A stretch of 57,630 bases of DNA, from the NCBI GenBank assembly GCA_016929065.1, contig JAFGJO010000025.1:1-57630 (forward strand). The letters run 5' to 3'. The translations under genes were made by a program, and so were the position numbers. This document shows positions 37,015 through 52,883 of this stretch, piece after piece. The first letter of the stretch is position 1, and each line of letters starts with the position of its first letter. The stretch is from Spirochaetales bacterium (GTDB lineage: Bacteria > Spirochaetota > Spirochaetia > SZUA-6 > RPPD01). The notes under the pieces were generated by a model that was not told the origin of the DNA, ran no database searches, and worked only from the letters and a program-made list of their open reading frames with translations.

Positions 37015-37042
37015 TTGACATCAGTCTGTTTTCGCATATAAT
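37015..37042 (+). promoter_or_regulatory. Consensus promoter of efp
   Basis: TTGACA (37015-37020), 16 bp, TATAAT (37037-37042). The predicted leader is about 115 nt and contains a 7-bp hairpin, CTCGTGT / ACACGGG with GAAAT loop (37111-37129). Confidence 0.85.
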
Positions 37043-38174: not shown

Positions 38175-38927
38175 ATTTCAATTCGGCTTCCCGTACGTAA
38201 TACATCCGAAATGTATTCTGTTGCACCATCAAAAATAATTGCCCTTGGGCTGAATTACCGCGATCATATCAAAGAGAGTGCCAGTATCCGGGTTCAGGGT
38301 TTTTCCAATGACATTCCCTCCGAGCCGATTCTGTTTCCCAAAACGCCGAATGTGCTCATCGGTTCGGGTGAAAACATTGTCATTCCCGCTTTTTTAAAAG
38401 AGTACCAGTTTGAAATACCCCGGGTGGATTATGAAGCAGAACTCGCCCTGATTATCGGGCAACGCTGTAAAAATATTGAAGTTGACCATGCGTTTGATGT
38501 AATATTCGGATTCACCTGCATGAACGATGTCAGCCAGCGGAATATCCAGAACTCAGACAAGGCAGGATGGTTCCGCGGCAAATCACTGGATACATTCGGC
38601 CCGGTCGGCCCGGTAATTGTCCGCATGCAGGATATCGGCGACCCGCAGTGTCTTTCGGTTGAATGCCGCCTGAACGGCGATACTGTTCAGGCATCCAATA
38701 CGAAATACATGATTTTTTCCATTCCCGAAATTATCACATTTGTCTCAAAAAACTTTACCCTTGAGGAAGGCGATATCATCACCACCGGTACTCCTGCGGG
38801 TGTGGGCCAGCTCAAACACGGGGATGTCGTGGAGGTGGAGATTGAAGGGATTGGAGTACTGCGGAATCCCGTCGTGGAAGAGGAACAGGAAAAAAATTCG
38901 CACAGAGTACACAAAGGGAAGAATTAA
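38175..38927 (+). CDS. Fumarylacetoacetate hydrolase-family protein with AUU start
   Basis: About 250 residues. Motifs are PSKIIALGLNYRDHIKES, YEAELALIIG (metal-binding Glu pair), FTCMNDVSQRNIQ (Asp) and KSLDTFGPVGP. The family hydrolyses or isomerises acylpyruvates in catabolism of aromatics or sugars. The only ATG (38211) has no ribosome site and lacks 12 residues (SIRLPVRNTSEM) that match the usual N-terminal lead. A full AGGAGG (38163-38168) stands 6 nt before an in-frame ATT at 38175, so AUU initiation is likely. The last 11 residues (KNSHRVHKGKN) come from a repeat-like sequence. Confidence 0.85.
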   Translation: MSIRLPVRNTSEMYSVAPSKIIALGLNYRDHIKESASIRVQGFSNDIPSEPILFPKTPNVLIGSGENIVIPAFLKEYQFEIPRVDYEAELALIIGQRCKNIEVDHAFDVIFGFTCMNDVSQRNIQNSDKAGWFRGKSLDTFGPVGPVIVRMQDIGDPQCLSVECRLNGDTVQASNTKYMIFSIPEIITFVSKNFTLEEGDIITTGTPAGVGQLKHGDVVEVEIEGIGVLRNPVVEEEQEKNSHRVHKGKN

Positions 38928-39031: not shown

Positions 39032-41554
39032 TCATTCCTGTCGTGTTCCTTCCTTGAACCGCCGGAGCTGATCGGATATAGTTTCGCCGGCGGTGCTGCT
39101 TTCTCCGCCATTGCTGCTCGCGGCGCTCTCGTCAGTGGCTGCAACTTCCCGGATTGCCTCGAAGATGTTCCTGCTCCCCTCTGCTGTCTGAACAAGAGAA
39201 TCAGCCACTTCAGTCGTGGCGATCGACTGCTGGGCGATTGCCTCTTTGATTGTCACTGACAAATCGCTCACCTTATTGATGACATGAATCACATTATTGA
39301 CCGCTCTGAAAGTCTCCTGACCGGTCGACTGGATAATTTTAACGAGGTTTTCTATCTCTTGTGTGGAATTTACTGTGACCTGAGAGAGTTTTTTTATTTC
39401 ATTTGCAACGACTTTGAACCCGTTTCCCGCCTGTCCTGCCCGTGCAGCCTGGATGTTTGCGTTCAGTGCGAGTATATTGGTTTTCTCCGCGATGTCGTTA
39501 ATCATGCCGGTAATCTGGGTGATGCGGTCTGACTGATCACGTAACGTTGCAAGGACTTCTGCTGCATTATTGACTGTGTGCACCGCGCCGCTCACCGTTG
39601 CCATGACCTCTTCTGTCTGTTTTGTGATCTGGCGGATATTGGCGGCGATCTCTTCTGTCGCGCTGGATACAGATTCCACGCGCGTCATGATCTCCTGGCT
39701 GTTGGAGGAAACGATCTGGGCTTTTGACTGGAGTGAGGAAAGGGTTGATTCGAGGAACGTTTCTGTGTTTTTCTGCTCGTCCATCAGGATTGATCCCATC
39801 AGAGCAGTCGTGAGCTGGTCTGCGAGCGTTGAGTATAACCGGCTTTTTACCGGGCCGGTCTGCGCGACCGTATATCCCAGATGAATATTGTTGAATACAA
39901 GCGGAATCACCAGCATGCTGAATTGGGTATCCGGAAGAGTAATGCTCTCGGGGAGAATGGTTTCTGTACGAAAACTGATTCCTGTTTTGTTGTTATAGGT
40001 GCCGGCTGTGGTTCTGGCAAATATGCACCGTGATGAATGGGGGAGTGCGTTGGGAAAGGAATATTTCTGCTTTTTATCATACAGACAAATGAAATACGAA
40101 GGGATGCATAGCGACTCAAGGCCTTTGTCAAGTTCATTCAACAGGGACTCCATGTCGAATGTGCTGATGAGTTTCAGTCCAATGGAGTTCATCAGCTGGA
40201 TATCATTCTCTACTGCCAGGGCAGTCTGAACGTCATTCCTTTTTTCCACTTCGTTGATGATAATCCGGGCCTTGGCGAAAAGGTCTTCGGCAAACAACAG
40301 GGATTCAGCATCATTTTGGTTTTGCAAAAAATCATTTTTTAGAAACTGGTTGCGCAAAACCGAGACTGCATTTTGCCAGGGGGTGATATCCTCATTGTTT
40401 TCGGACAGGAGCACCAGGCTCTCCTCAAAAACTGCAAGGAATTTTCTGTCGGATTTTTTGGAAAAAGAGGAATAAAAAATACTGATGAATTGTTCCAGGA
40501 TGGTGTGCAGGACATTGCTGTTGTTATCTTTGGAAAGAGTACTCATTGAAAAAAAAGGTTCAATACAACCGACCGTCTCTTCGAGGAACTCCTGAAAATC
40601 CCGCTGCTTTTTTTTGGCCGTTATTCCCCGGCTTTTTGCGGGGATTCCGTTGAACAATAGATTGCCAGCATGGACGATTTCAGCAGACTGGCAGCCGCAT
40701 GATTTCTTTATAGTTGGTTCTGCAGAGATTGAATAAATTTCTTTTGTCGGCTCATGCCGGATCACCGATAAAAGTGCAGAGACTGCTGCATTCACCTGTG
40801 CATCAAACGGCATCTGAACTGAAGTCAGCGGGGGGGTGAAACTTGCGCCTTCTGGCCGTGAGTTCAGGCTGACGGCACATACATCGTGCGGTACTTTTTT
40901 ACCGCGTCGTTTTAACTCATTAATCACACCGATCATCACTGCGTCATTGGTGGTCACCAGGGCATCGATATCAATGGGAATGGTCAAGTGCTGCTGGTCC
41001 AGCAGATAGACTACGGCATTCAGCCCGGCATCAGCGGTATAGTCGCCAGGGGGGGTAACCAGTTCTTCACGGAATCCAAGATTATATTGATTGATACAAT
41101 CGCAGTATGCCTGGTACCGCTCTTTTGCGTATACATGATCAACCGGGCCCCTGACAAAAGCTATTTTTTTTACACCGTGCTTTTCGATGATATGGGAAAG
41201 AGCGGTCTTGGTGCCTGTATAACAGTCGATCATCGCACAGGGATGGCCCGGGACCTGCATTGTCAGACTGACAAGATTTTTATCCTTGAATTGTTCGTAG
41301 AATGAAAGATATGAAGGATCCGAGGTTGCCCAGTTGAGGTACCCGTCAAATCGATCCGGGTGACACAGTTTGAACGAGCTGTTCGCCTGATGTTTGCCAA
41401 GGGTTGAGCCGTAAAAGGCGACACAATTTATTTTCATGGATTTGGCCGATTCAAATACACTTTTTAACAATGATATCCCGGTGATCCCGTCAACATCACG
41501 GGTGAGAAATGCAATTGTTTCCCGTTGGTTTCTGCTGCCTGAAAATATGTGCAT
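39032..41554 (-). CDS. Soluble chemoreceptor with LacI-like sensor, GAF domain and MCP signalling domain
   Basis: 840 residues with no membrane helix. Residues 1-290 are a Peripla_BP_3 / LacI-GalR ligand domain (TIAFLTRDVDGITG, TGTKTALSHIIEKHGVKKIAFVRGP, IDALVTTNDAVMIGVINEL), but no DNA-binding helix-turn-helix is present. A cysteine-rich link (KKSCGC) and helical spacer follow. Next come a GAF domain (about 455-600) and a cytoplasmic methyl-accepting chemotaxis domain (605-835) with the hairpin tip NILALNANIQAARAGQAGNGF. The canonical AAIEAAR glutamate is Gln here. There is no CheR tether peptide. It probably senses an imported sugar and signals to CheA/CheW. The pectate lyase gene is just upstream. 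Confidence 0.9.
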   Translation of the reverse strand: MHIFSGSRNQRETIAFLTRDVDGITGISLLKSVFESAKSMKINCVAFYGSTLGKHQANSSFKLCHPDRFDGYLNWATSDPSYLSFYEQFKDKNLVSLTMQVPGHPCAMIDCYTGTKTALSHIIEKHGVKKIAFVRGPVDHVYAKERYQAYCDCINQYNLGFREELVTPPGDYTADAGLNAVVYLLDQQHLTIPIDIDALVTTNDAVMIGVINELKRRGKKVPHDVCAVSLNSRPEGASFTPPLTSVQMPFDAQVNAAVSALLSVIRHEPTKEIYSISAEPTIKKSCGCQSAEIVHAGNLLFNGIPAKSRGITAKKKQRDFQEFLEETVGCIEPFFSMSTLSKDNNSNVLHTILEQFISIFYSSFSKKSDRKFLAVFEESLVLLSENNEDITPWQNAVSVLRNQFLKNDFLQNQNDAESLLFAEDLFAKARIIINEVEKRNDVQTALAVENDIQLMNSIGLKLISTFDMESLLNELDKGLESLCIPSYFICLYDKKQKYSFPNALPHSSRCIFARTTAGTYNNKTGISFRTETILPESITLPDTQFSMLVIPLVFNNIHLGYTVAQTGPVKSRLYSTLADQLTTALMGSILMDEQKNTETFLESTLSSLQSKAQIVSSNSQEIMTRVESVSSATEEIAANIRQITKQTEEVMATVSGAVHTVNNAAEVLATLRDQSDRITQITGMINDIAEKTNILALNANIQAARAGQAGNGFKVVANEIKKLSQVTVNSTQEIENLVKIIQSTGQETFRAVNNVIHVINKVSDLSVTIKEAIAQQSIATTEVADSLVQTAEGSRNIFEAIREVAATDESAASSNGGESSTAGETISDQLRRFKEGTRQE

Positions 41555-41621: not shown

Positions 41622-41650
41622 ATTATATTTTGATCAACCAGCCCTGTCAA
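41622..41650 (-). promoter_or_regulatory. Fully consensus promoter of the chemoreceptor gene
   Basis: TTGACA (41645-41650), 17 bp, TATAAT (41622-41627). The spacer contains the palindrome TTGATCAA (41630-41637). The leader is about 60 nt. Confidence 0.85.
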
Positions 41651-41652
41651 TT

Positions 41653-41681
41653 AAAAAAACCGGAGGAGGGGCCTCCGGTTT
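41653..41681 (-). terminator. Intrinsic terminator of the pectate lyase gene
   Basis: Perfect 10-bp stem AAACCGGAGG / CCTCCGGTTT with a 5-base loop, followed on the minus strand by seven T. It abuts the chemoreceptor promoter. Confidence 0.9.
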
Positions 41682-41704
41682 CGGGTTTTTCTGTTTTACA
41701 TGCT

Positions 41705-42841
41705 TCAATACTTGTTTTTCAGAACATTATTTCCCGGCGCCCATTTCTGCTGCCACACCGGATATTCATCCCTTAAAAAGGAAAGCGGGGCATCGGTGTA
41801 CCAGCGGTAATTGTATCTGCGTTCCTGTTCAATTTCCGAAACATCATATTTTATAATCCCGTCCCGGCCGCTGAAAATGGGGCGGTTTGTCTTGATTTCG
41901 TAAAAGCGTGCCCACAGCGGGGGAGCATCTGCTTTTTTCTCGACTGTAAAATCAAAATCATCGTCCTTGATATTTGATTTTTTCAGATAAATGCCTTTTA
42001 GCGCTGACTTGTCAAACCAGGCAACCCCGGCCTGAATTGATTTGATCATTTGGGGAGACGGATTGTCGAGCGACATCAAAAAACGCAGAATTGATACACC
42101 TTCGAGTCCGCTGATTGACGGGTGCTCATAAGAGCGCGCAAGGGCAGGTGCCAGGGTTTTTGGGTCATATTGTGCACACCAGCCGGTGAGGGTGTTGTCA
42201 ACGACAATCTGGGTTTTTAAAATGCACTCAATACCTTTTTTTACGGCGACAGCAGCCTTTTTTCTGATGTCGTCTTTCAGGAATTTGAAATCGGGATTTG
42301 ATGATGTGGCAATCTCCTGAAGCAAATATAAATTATTGGTAATCGCATCGTCATTGAAGGTGATGCCGGCATGATACCCCTGGGGGTTTGGAAAATCCTG
42401 CGGCCAGCCTCCGTTGTCATACTGTGCTGTGAAAATAAAATCCAGCCCGCGGGAAATTGAGTCGAGAATTTTTGGTGTCGGCTGGGCATTATACATTTTT
42501 GCAAGAAACCGGATTTGTGTGGTCGTGGCATCATTGTCAAAGGTCGAGTTCGTATTCATCTGCCCTGCGCGCAGCAGCATCCGCGTTTCGTTTTCTGAAA
42601 GCGGGCGGATCATGTCGGTGTCTTTTTGCCAGCCGCCGGTTGCAAGCTGATAAATCATGACATTTTCTGCAATGCGCATGGTTTCTTTGGATTGATACCA
42701 GGCCGCATCCTGCATGAGAATGCTTTCGATGGAAATGTTTTCCGGTCGGATGTTCTGTGAAACCGGAGCCGGCTCCTGGGACACGCAGGCGGAAAACAGC
42801 AGTAATGCAGCAATTGCGAAATTGAATGGATTTCGTTTCAT
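41705..42841 (-). CDS. Polysaccharide lyase family 10 pectate lyase, lipoprotein
   Basis: 378 residues from ATG 42841, behind AAGGAGG. The signal peptide ends in the lipobox LLFSAC, so the enzyme is lipid-anchored. The catalytic body shows PL10 features: GGWQKDTDM, STFDNDATTTQIRFLAKMYN, GGWPQDFPNPQGYHAGITFNDDAITNNLYLL, and WCAQYDP. It cleaves polygalacturonate by beta-elimination, giving unsaturated oligogalacturonides. A promoter with an overlapping palindrome suggests substrate control. The gene precedes the chemoreceptor in the same direction. Confidence 0.92.
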   Translation of the reverse strand: MKRNPFNFAIAALLLFSACVSQEPAPVSQNIRPENISIESILMQDAAWYQSKETMRIAENVMIYQLATGGWQKDTDMIRPLSENETRMLLRAGQMNTNSTFDNDATTTQIRFLAKMYNAQPTPKILDSISRGLDFIFTAQYDNGGWPQDFPNPQGYHAGITFNDDAITNNLYLLQEIATSSNPDFKFLKDDIRKKAAVAVKKGIECILKTQIVVDNTLTGWCAQYDPKTLAPALARSYEHPSISGLEGVSILRFLMSLDNPSPQMIKSIQAGVAWFDKSALKGIYLKKSNIKDDDFDFTVEKKADAPPLWARFYEIKTNRPIFSGRDGIIKYDVSEIEQERRYNYRWYTDAPLSFLRDEYPVWQQKWAPGNNVLKNKY

Positions 42842-47439: not shown

Positions 47440-49062
47440 ATGAAAAGAATACTCTGCATACTGTTTCTCCTGACAAGTTTTACCCTGGTGCAGCTGTCTG
47501 CCCGGGATTTTTATGTCCGGCAGGGCGCCGAAGGAACCGGAGCGAAAGAAAGCCCGTATGGTGAATTGTGGCGTGCACTCGAACAGGCGCTTCGAGGCGA
47601 TGTGATTCATGTGGCGGGCGGAGTATATACCGGCAAGGGCGGATCGGGCAGTTTTATTGTCCGGGTCCCCAAGCTGACGATTGCCGGGGGATACTCGGAA
47701 GATTTTTCAGTTCGTGACCCCTTTATGTACAAGACGATGCTGCAGCGCGCAACCGATTACAAGGGCGATATGCTCGGGCTGCCGCAGGGCATCCTTGAAG
47801 GCAAGGACGGAGCAGATCATTCTGGCCTTGTCGTTGACGGCCTGGTGTTAAACGGTAAAACCAGAAATGCCTATTATCCCAGCGGTGACCTGAGTGTGCG
47901 GGGTTCCTGGGACGGAGTATTGTTTGCCACTTCGAGTCCGGACATTATTGTCCGGAATACCGTATTCATCAACCCGTATGGAGGCGGGATCTATTCCCGC
48001 TGGTATGGGGAAAACAATGAGGTTTCCAATTGTTTTTTTATCAACAATTTCTACTGTGCGGTGGATACGCGGTCGGCGCAGCCGGAGTCGGTGATTACCA
48101 TAAAAAACAATACCATCGCATTTATCTGGGAGCAGCCGGGGAAGGGCGGCGGCATGGGAATCAATGTCGGGTCTCAGGGCGAAACGAAAATTGAAAACAA
48201 TATTATCATGTTTACCGAAGAGTTCGCCGTCTATAATTCCCTGAAAAATACCGACACAGTGATGCGTAATAATGTGTTCTTTCAAAACCGCGGCGGAATC
48301 TACAAATATCTTGAACGGGAGGGACGCAATCTGCTTGTCTGGAAACCGAATGAACTCGAGGACCTGAACCAAAATGCCGAAACCTACTCGCTGTGGGAAA
48401 GCGGCGGGAATACCATCAAAAATCCGAATCCGAAACCTGACAAGGATTATTTTTCCGGATTCGCAAACAAAATGATGGCCAGTCTCGGCCTTTTTGATAT
48501 TGATGCGATGAAAGCTGTCTGGACTGCTGCTGGACTCTCCGGGGCTCCAAGCTCGTCGCAGAAACAGAATTGGGGACATGCTTATCCTGTCGAAAATCTC
48601 TCCGGGATGGATCTTGCAAGTGATGCTGGTGCGCACCGTCAGAAAACCTATCTGGCCTATTCCTCGGCGGATTCTGCATCGCCTGCAGCTTCCTACACGA
48701 AGGTTGAATTCAGCCTTTTCAGCAGAGAAACACCGGAGGTAAAAAAACTGGATAATACTGCTGTTGAGTTTTCTGCCGCAATGGGTGCGAACCAGATTGT
48801 CTATTTTGAGCACATTGTTGCAAAAACTGATTATCGGTGTGTCATGCTGAACATGCCGGGCGAGAAAAGCTATACCCGGAACTATGTGTACGGGTATCTG
48901 TTGAAAGGGTCGGCGGCCGAGAAGGTATGGGACAAATACTATGCAAAACGGGACCGTTATTATGAAAAGGGCCTGTCAATAAAAGGCCGTGCATACTATG
49001 TAAAAAATGACTCCTATCTGTTTCCTGTTGGGGTTATTATCGACGAGATTACACTTCCGTAG
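47440..49062 (+). CDS. Secreted right-handed beta-helix protein
   Basis: 540 residues with a signal peptide (MKRILCILFLLTSFTLVQLSA). The N-terminal DFYVRQGAEGTGAKESPYGELWRALEQALRGDVIHVAGGVY is the usual opening of DUF1565-type and pectate-lyase-like beta-helices. Repeated rungs follow (DIIVRNTVFINPYGGGIYSR, NNTIAFIWEQ, IENNIIMFTEEFAVYN). The last 150 residues form another domain. It may be a polysaccharide lyase such as PL9, but catalytic residues cannot be assigned by eye. AAGGACG precedes the ATG. Confidence 0.75.
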   Translation: MKRILCILFLLTSFTLVQLSARDFYVRQGAEGTGAKESPYGELWRALEQALRGDVIHVAGGVYTGKGGSGSFIVRVPKLTIAGGYSEDFSVRDPFMYKTMLQRATDYKGDMLGLPQGILEGKDGADHSGLVVDGLVLNGKTRNAYYPSGDLSVRGSWDGVLFATSSPDIIVRNTVFINPYGGGIYSRWYGENNEVSNCFFINNFYCAVDTRSAQPESVITIKNNTIAFIWEQPGKGGGMGINVGSQGETKIENNIIMFTEEFAVYNSLKNTDTVMRNNVFFQNRGGIYKYLEREGRNLLVWKPNELEDLNQNAETYSLWESGGNTIKNPNPKPDKDYFSGFANKMMASLGLFDIDAMKAVWTAAGLSGAPSSSQKQNWGHAYPVENLSGMDLASDAGAHRQKTYLAYSSADSASPAASYTKVEFSLFSRETPEVKKLDNTAVEFSAAMGANQIVYFEHIVAKTDYRCVMLNMPGEKSYTRNYVYGYLLKGSAAEKVWDKYYAKRDRYYEKGLSIKGRAYYVKNDSYLFPVGVIIDEITLP

Positions 49063-51920: not shown

Positions 51921-52883
51921 ATGTCGAACATTGGAACCCAGACATTTATTGTCGCCCGGGACGGTACCGGAACCCATACTTCCGTAACTTCTGCACTCGA
52001 AGCTGTCCTGCGTCATGCAGCTGAACCGGTAAACATTTATATAAAAAACGGGATTTATAATGAGGTCGTCACGGTTCCCGATACATTAAAAAATATTCAT
52101 TTCATTGGAGAAGATCCAAAAAAAACAATTATTACCGGCGACAATTACAATGCAAAACTCAAGCCGGACGGTTCTCCCTACGGAACGCACGGGAGCGCGA
52201 CTGTTTTTATATTTGGAGACGGTTTTTTCGCAGAAAACATCACCTTTCAAAATGATTCACAGACCGGTCTGCAGGATCAGGGGAGACAGGCGGTTGCACT
52301 GCGAAGCTCTGCCGACCGGCTGATATTCAGACACTGCCGGTTTTTGGGGAACCAGGACACCTTGTTTAGCGAAAAAGGCAGACAGTATTTCGAAAACTGT
52401 TATATCGAAGGAGATGTCGATTTCATTTTTGGAAACGGTCCGGTCTGGTTTGAGCAATGTGAAATAAAATCGGTAGAAAGGCATGTGGATTTACCGGGAT
52501 TCTGCTGTGCGCCCAGTACTCCTGCTTCACAGCAGTACGGCATGGTATTCAACCGGTGCAGATGTACGGCAGAATACGGGGTCAAAGACCGTACCGTGTA
52601 TCTGGGCCGAGGATGGCATCCCACCTATTATTCGGTACCGGTTTCCAGCAATGCGGTTTTTATGCATTGTGAACTGGGCAGGCACATTAAAAAAGAGGGC
52701 TGGACAGTAATGCGGGAACAGTATCCGGTACCAACAGAGAGATTTCGGGAATACTTGAACAGCGGGGCGGGAGCCGGCAAGAGGCATGAACACCGCGTCC
52801 AGTTGTCCGGTCCGGAGGCAGAACAATACACGATCAGGAATGTCCTGGGTGGAGATGACGGCTGGGATCCGGTGAAAAAATAA
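51921..52883 (+). CDS. Pectinesterase (carbohydrate esterase family 8) without signal peptide
   Basis: 320 residues, right-handed beta-helix. The conserved motifs are RQAVALR (Gln123), NQDTLF (Asp146, acid/base), DVDFIFG (Asp167, nucleophile) and YLGRGW (substrate Arg). It removes methyl groups from homogalacturonan. No signal peptide or lipobox is visible from the first ATG, and no upstream frame could add one, so the enzyme appears cytoplasmic and would act on imported oligomers. The start codon is also 6 nt after a -10-like box. Confidence 0.93.
   Translation: MSNIGTQTFIVARDGTGTHTSVTSALEAVLRHAAEPVNIYIKNGIYNEVVTVPDTLKNIHFIGEDPKKTIITGDNYNAKLKPDGSPYGTHGSATVFIFGDGFFAENITFQNDSQTGLQDQGRQAVALRSSADRLIFRHCRFLGNQDTLFSEKGRQYFENCYIEGDVDFIFGNGPVWFEQCEIKSVERHVDLPGFCCAPSTPASQQYGMVFNRCRCTAEYGVKDRTVYLGRGWHPTYYSVPVSSNAVFMHCELGRHIKKEGWTVMREQYPVPTERFREYLNSGAGAGKRHEHRVQLSGPEAEQYTIRNVLGGDDGWDPVKK

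Follow-up and report, generated by a model that had tools for sequence, protein, structure and literature searches.

A predicted cytosolic chemoreceptor of a spirochaete joins a LacI-type sensor to an MCP signalling hairpin and belongs to a family with interchangeable outputs

The window analysed here is a stretch of 57,630 nucleotides from a Spirochaetales bacterium (contig JAFGJO010000025.1). On its reverse strand, at positions 39032 to 41554, it carries an intact reading frame with an ATG start, which encodes a protein of 840 amino acid residues. The reading frame, Pfam searches, hydropathy and an AlphaFold model indicate that the protein is a cytosolic chemoreceptor composed of a LacI-type sensor, a GAF-like domain and an MCP hairpin. 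As the initial annotation had it, a gene for a pectate lyase lipoprotein (41705 to 42841, reverse strand; PF09492, E = 2e-99) adjoins the receptor gene upstream. The convergent neighbor on the other side (38211 to 38927, forward strand) was assigned by Pfam and NCBIfam to the FAA-hydrolase family; its best NCBIfam match, 2,4-didehydro-3-deoxy-L-rhamnonate hydrolase, was far below the cut-off. No dedicated che genes were found beside the receptor. The wider context includes a pectinesterase gene (51921 to 52883, forward strand; PF01095) about 10 kb from the receptor and, on another contig of the genome (C47), a GH28 gene. Because of the pectate lyase, the pectinesterase and this GH28 gene, the organism probably degrades pectin. 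The window also encodes a right-handed beta-helix protein (47440 to 49062, forward strand) next to a LysM protein, which could be a surface or polysaccharide-acting protein.

The perfect consensus promoter mentioned in the initial annotation is real; it lies downstream of the pectate lyase gene and belongs to the receptor gene. An intrinsic terminator with a GC-rich 11-bp stem and a T-run (41656 to 41682, reverse strand) separates the two genes, and right after the T-run starts a sigma-70-type promoter, TTGACA-17-TATAAT (41622 to 41650, reverse strand), with the start codon of the receptor 68 bases downstream. Two perfect promoters were seen in the window, against 0.02 expected by chance; the other one (TTGACA-16-TATAAT, 37015 to 37042, forward strand) precedes the gene that encodes elongation factor P. 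An operon of the receptor and the pectate lyase was therefore rejected, and the receptor gene, with a terminator before it and its own promoter, probably forms its own transcription unit, the pectate lyase gene being in a separate one.

All parts of the receptor described below are encoded on the reverse strand. The LacI-type ligand-binding domain (residues 13 to 288; 40691 to 41518) was recognized by Pfam, in the AlphaFold model and by Foldseek. The Pfam matches were Peripla_BP_3 at residues 125 to 286 (E = 4e-19) and Peripla_BP_1 at residues 56 to 268. The model of residues 1 to 612, in which all domains are soluble ones, has a mean pLDDT of 84.5, with values mostly above 85 in the sensor domain, and isolated sensor domains aligned with structures of the LacI/GalR family at target TM-scores of about 0.84 to 0.89. 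Pfam found no LacI HTH in the receptor, and in the model the binding-protein fold opens with its strand 1 as early as residue 13; in lacking an HTH, the receptor departs from the LacI/GalR transcriptional repressors. Neither a transmembrane segment nor a signal peptide was found, as expected of a cytoplasmic chemoreceptor, and the highest Kyte-Doolittle mean over 19 residues was 1.34, consistent with no membrane helix. Thus, the proposal of a sugar-repressor-type sensor stripped of its DNA-binding head in a protein of the cytoplasm was borne out.

The sensor ends in a Ser-Cys-Gly-Cys signature (residues 285 to 288; 40691 to 40702), followed by a helical connector (residues 289 to 463; 40166 to 40690) that appears in the model with a long helix at 416 to 463 and matches no known Pfam family. 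The part that the initial annotation called GAF corresponds to residues 468 to 611 (39722 to 40153). In the predicted fold of residues 285 to 612, the helical part precedes two helices, five strands and a long helix, which is a GAF topology. Almost all of the top Foldseek matches of this region in the PDB were GAF or GAF-containing proteins (Lcd1, PtsP, NLH, and cyanobacteriochrome and PDE GAFs), with a probability of 1.00 although the best E-value was only about 3e-3. On the other hand, Pfam detected no GAF domain in the receptor and, among 27 family members, gave a single unconvincing match (E = 0.058), and a profile search against PDB sequences did not find one. The predicted fold therefore supports the term GAF-like, whereas membership in the GAF sequence family is not supported. 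A second ligand might be bound here, or the domain might only pass on the signal. Its last predicted helix (573 to 611) leads straight into the MCP signalling hairpin (about residues 612 to 808; 39131 to 39721), whose identification was upheld by an above-cut-off match to MCPsignal (PF00015, residues 659 to 807, E = 3.7e-27) and by the conserved tip, EKTNILALNA, at residues 690 to 699. Methylation-type motifs in both arms are loose (SATEEIAA, 631 to 638; AIAQQSIA, 772 to 779) and do not match the strict 10-residue consensus, and a C-terminal pentapeptide of the NWETF type is absent.

The receptor had been presented as a singular fusion, but a search of the source genome with the receptor protein showed that about 16 proteins share its sensor and middle part. 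The sensor, the Ser-Cys-Gly-Cys signature, the helical stretch and the GAF-like domain thus form one conserved input module, which is joined to different outputs. In the source genome, Pfam assigned an MCP output to four proteins (the window receptor, L021, L022 and L023) and a HisKA/HATPase kinase output to six (L024, L025, L027, L030, L033 and L035); a further protein, L026, has a kinase-like but degenerate output as judged by eye, two carry a LuxR HTH (L028 and L032) and three an AraC HTH (L029, L031 and L034). A scan of named genomes found relatives in Treponema, Brevinematales and other Spirochaetota, and outside this phylum in Uliginosibacterium (a betaproteobacterium; MCP), Anaerolineae of Chloroflexota (GAF-HK), Bacillota (HK-RR-Hpt) and Fibrobacterota (SpoIIE and HK). 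Outside the source genome, the outputs also include GGDEF, GGDEF-EAL, SpoIIE, HK-RR-Hpt and HK-RR-HD; among the named loci, the GGDEF, GGDEF-EAL and LuxR outputs and the second SpoIIE output (L073) were assigned from sequence and not by Pfam. The middle module was found in 37 of 148 sampled genomes of the class, with at least 15 copies in each of five (G000, G001, G003, G008 and G013). One locus of G001 (L116, 3765 to 10896) has three LacI-type MCP genes in tandem. Separately, the source genome encodes two further chemoreceptors (L007 on C2 and L012 on C59) in which a binding-protein-type sensor from another family, Peripla_BP_4, is fused to MCPsignal.

Across 64 family members, S285, C286, G287, C288, H121, H126 and G136 (receptor numbering) are invariant. 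The Cys-Gly-Cys after the sensor is, at the level of sequence, a signature of the family, and the Ser-Cys-Gly-Cys may have a metal, redox or structural role. The Arg that contacts the ligand in LacI/GalR proteins corresponds to R146, which 63 of the 64 members retain; D204, presumably their conserved pocket Asp, is retained in 61. At position 231, 43 members have Asn and 21 have Asp; since the equivalent residue in sugar-binding LacI is Asp, sugar specificity is not assured.

In a phylogenetic tree of the input module, the receptor grouped with L047 of Spirochaetes bacterium Zod_Metabat.719 (36% identity, support 100/98). Both fall within a clade of 14 proteins, all of them MCPs (support 100/99), which also includes three paralogues and sequences from Treponema and Uliginosibacterium, while four further MCP members fall outside it. 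Given the starred branches of the tree, the MCP label must have changed at least twice. Six output labels required 13 changes on the tree versus 24 when the labels were shuffled, indicating that the outputs are partly conserved and partly swapped.

We also surveyed the gene neighborhoods of the relatives. Sugar or polysaccharide genes (GH, polysaccharide lyase or sugar transporter) lie beside about six of the 12 non-Treponema MCP loci examined: besides the window receptor, these are L022 (near GH43), L040 (near a sugar-type ABC transporter), L041 (flanked by GH5 and GH3, one on each side), L043 (adjoining GH5) and L045 (divergent from GH1 and GH36). No sugar gene was recognizable near L021, L023, L044, L047, L048 or L055, the Uliginosibacterium homologue. 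Neighbors were assigned by eye from N-terminal sequences, except for a set confirmed among the neighbors of L040, L041, L043 and L045. The MCP members of Treponema adjoin Liv-type amino-acid transporters, purL/hisG or ribosomal genes, and none is beside sugar genes; at four loci (L052, L053, L054 and L056, with L054 from Treponema berlinense), the LacI-type MCP gene lies close to rplQ/rpoA and is transcribed away from an ABC operon of the Liv type, for branched-chain amino acids. An AraC-output member in the source genome (L107, 7380 to 9680 of C22) lies inside an apparent NiFe-hydrogenase gene cluster. Within the source genome, two of four family MCPs have sugar neighbors versus none of 12 other MCPs, around which no polysaccharide gene was recognizable by eye; this is a small contrast (Fisher, calculated by hand; P about 0.05). 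As a control for gene density, a single match to each of GH5 and GH3 showed the source genome to be poor in these families, whereas G001, G002 and G018 have 11, 15 and 18 GH5 matches, respectively, and G018 has 14 GH3 matches, so that GH neighbors in these three genomes count less. The association of the MCP members with sugar genes is thus real-looking but modest. The association with pectin genes, for which the neighbors of homologues were searched, is a single case: no pectin gene was recognizable near L047, the closest relative, or near the other homologues examined. Around L047 lie housekeeping genes and the genes for a surface lipoprotein and an alcohol dehydrogenase. The argument from conserved neighbors accordingly failed for pectin.

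We consider it somewhat better than an even proposition that the receptor is a soluble chemoreceptor which senses how much of a small imported metabolite the cytosol contains, a sugar or a derivative of one being most likely, and that it is one of a family joining a conserved input module to interchangeable outputs. The domain order, the absence of a membrane helix and an HTH, the conservation of the module, the swapping of outputs and the CheA/CheW-type proteins of the genome are all evident from the sequences and predicted folds. In LacI and RbsR, the ligand closes the two lobes of the domain, and by analogy a ligand would do so in the receptor. The conformational change would then cross the SCGC hinge and travel along the helical connector and the GAF-like domain to reach the MCP hairpin, and the hairpin would set the activity of CheA via CheW; we infer this direction of signalling, and coupling to the flagella is likewise presumed. 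The source genome has seven matches to the CheW domain, in about three CheA-sized and four CheW-sized reading frames. In an alignment, about 110 to 130 residues follow the hairpin tip in the MCP clade versus about 180 to 230 in three clearly multi-TM receptors; the shorter hairpin may therefore not mix with membrane receptors. By analogy with the cytoplasmic chemoreceptor arrays seen in other bacteria (PMC3964821), the clade could assemble into an array of its own or into a cytoplasmic one, separate from the membrane receptors.

A sugar ligand, as initially proposed, is reasonable in view of the sugar genes at about half of the non-Treponema MCP loci, but the Treponema homologues count against it. 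Their divergent Liv amino-acid transporters, together with the AraC-output member in the hydrogenase gene cluster, would fit the recruitment of LacI-type domains for varied ligands, such as an amino acid, a purine or another compound, and PurR of the same superfamily binds purines. Against this, six MCP members, the window receptor among them, have polysaccharide genes or genes for sugar uptake as neighbors, and we regard a non-sugar ligand as a tentative, rather doubtful alternative. The narrower proposal of a ligand released by the breakdown of pectin (galacturonate, unsaturated digalacturonate or KDG) draws on the pectate lyase next door, the pectinesterase 10 kb away and the GH28 gene; since the terminator and the receptor's own promoter divide the receptor gene from the lyase gene, and L047 and the other homologues examined have no recognizable pectin genes nearby, the specific link to pectin was not sustained, and such a ligand is unlikely. 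It also seems quite improbable that the receptor feeds a chemosensory pathway other than flagellar steering, namely second-messenger or gene control. The absence of dedicated che genes beside the receptor argues against such a pathway, while about three CheA-like frames in the genome, the GGDEF, HD and kinase outputs driven by the input module elsewhere, and the receptor's hairpin, which is shorter than those of the genome's membrane receptors and so may place it in a separate array, are consistent with it.

Both cytoplasmic chemoreceptors and LacI-type domains outside repressors are already known. With the LacI/GalR repressors (LacI, RbsR, CcpA and PurR), the receptor shares the ligand-binding fold and the conserved pocket Arg and Asp, but it differs from them by the lack of an HTH, the SCGC signature, the invariant H121 and H126, and the MCP output. 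E. coli XylR, an AraC-type activator with a LacI/GalR ligand domain, likewise has a LacI-type sensor on a non-LacI output; this output binds DNA and there is no GAF-like connector, in contrast to the MCP output and connector of the receptor. The cytoplasmic chemoreceptors of R. sphaeroides (TlpT/TlpC) and V. cholerae (arrays in PMC3964821) also have an MCP hairpin, no membrane segment and presumed coupling to CheA/CheW, but other or no recognized sensory domains in place of the LacI-type sensor. Periplas_BP-domain proteins combine a LacI-related sensor with a signalling output, which in the portion of a c-di-GMP review consulted (PMC8846402) is a c-di-GMP output, with no MCP form named there. 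Chemotaxis to sugars, proposed for the receptor, is also served by chemoreceptors of the membrane (C. jejuni Tlp11/CcrG, PMC5080441; E. coli Trg), but these detect the extracellular signal, either with a dCache domain or with the help of a separate periplasmic binding protein. In the part of the literature searched, we found no description of a LacI or Peripla_BP_3 sensor on a chemoreceptor, nor of the SCGC module joined to its various outputs; both the MCP with a LacI-type sensor in the cytosol and the family built on the SCGC module are therefore apparently undescribed.

We would give an even chance to a broader view, in which metabolites of the cytosol are sensed by the LacI-SCGC-helical-GAF-like unit as a general plug-in. 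This unit would have been connected repeatedly with motility, with kinases, with second messengers and with transcription factors, would have multiplied to at least 15 copies in some spirochaetes and would have crossed between phyla, and its MCP branch would be a class of chemoreceptors whose sensory domain has not yet been described for chemoreceptors. The middle part of about 300 residues, dark to Pfam, is a candidate new family, and the invariant Cys-Gly-Cys is an unexplained but testable feature of the module. Since about 16 proteins encoded by a single genome share the input module, they offer a natural experiment in the joining of a sensor to many outputs. Few cytoplasmic chemoreceptors have a known ligand; ligands of a LacI-type pocket are easily screened, which would allow a direct test of whether cells steer by substances that they have already taken up.
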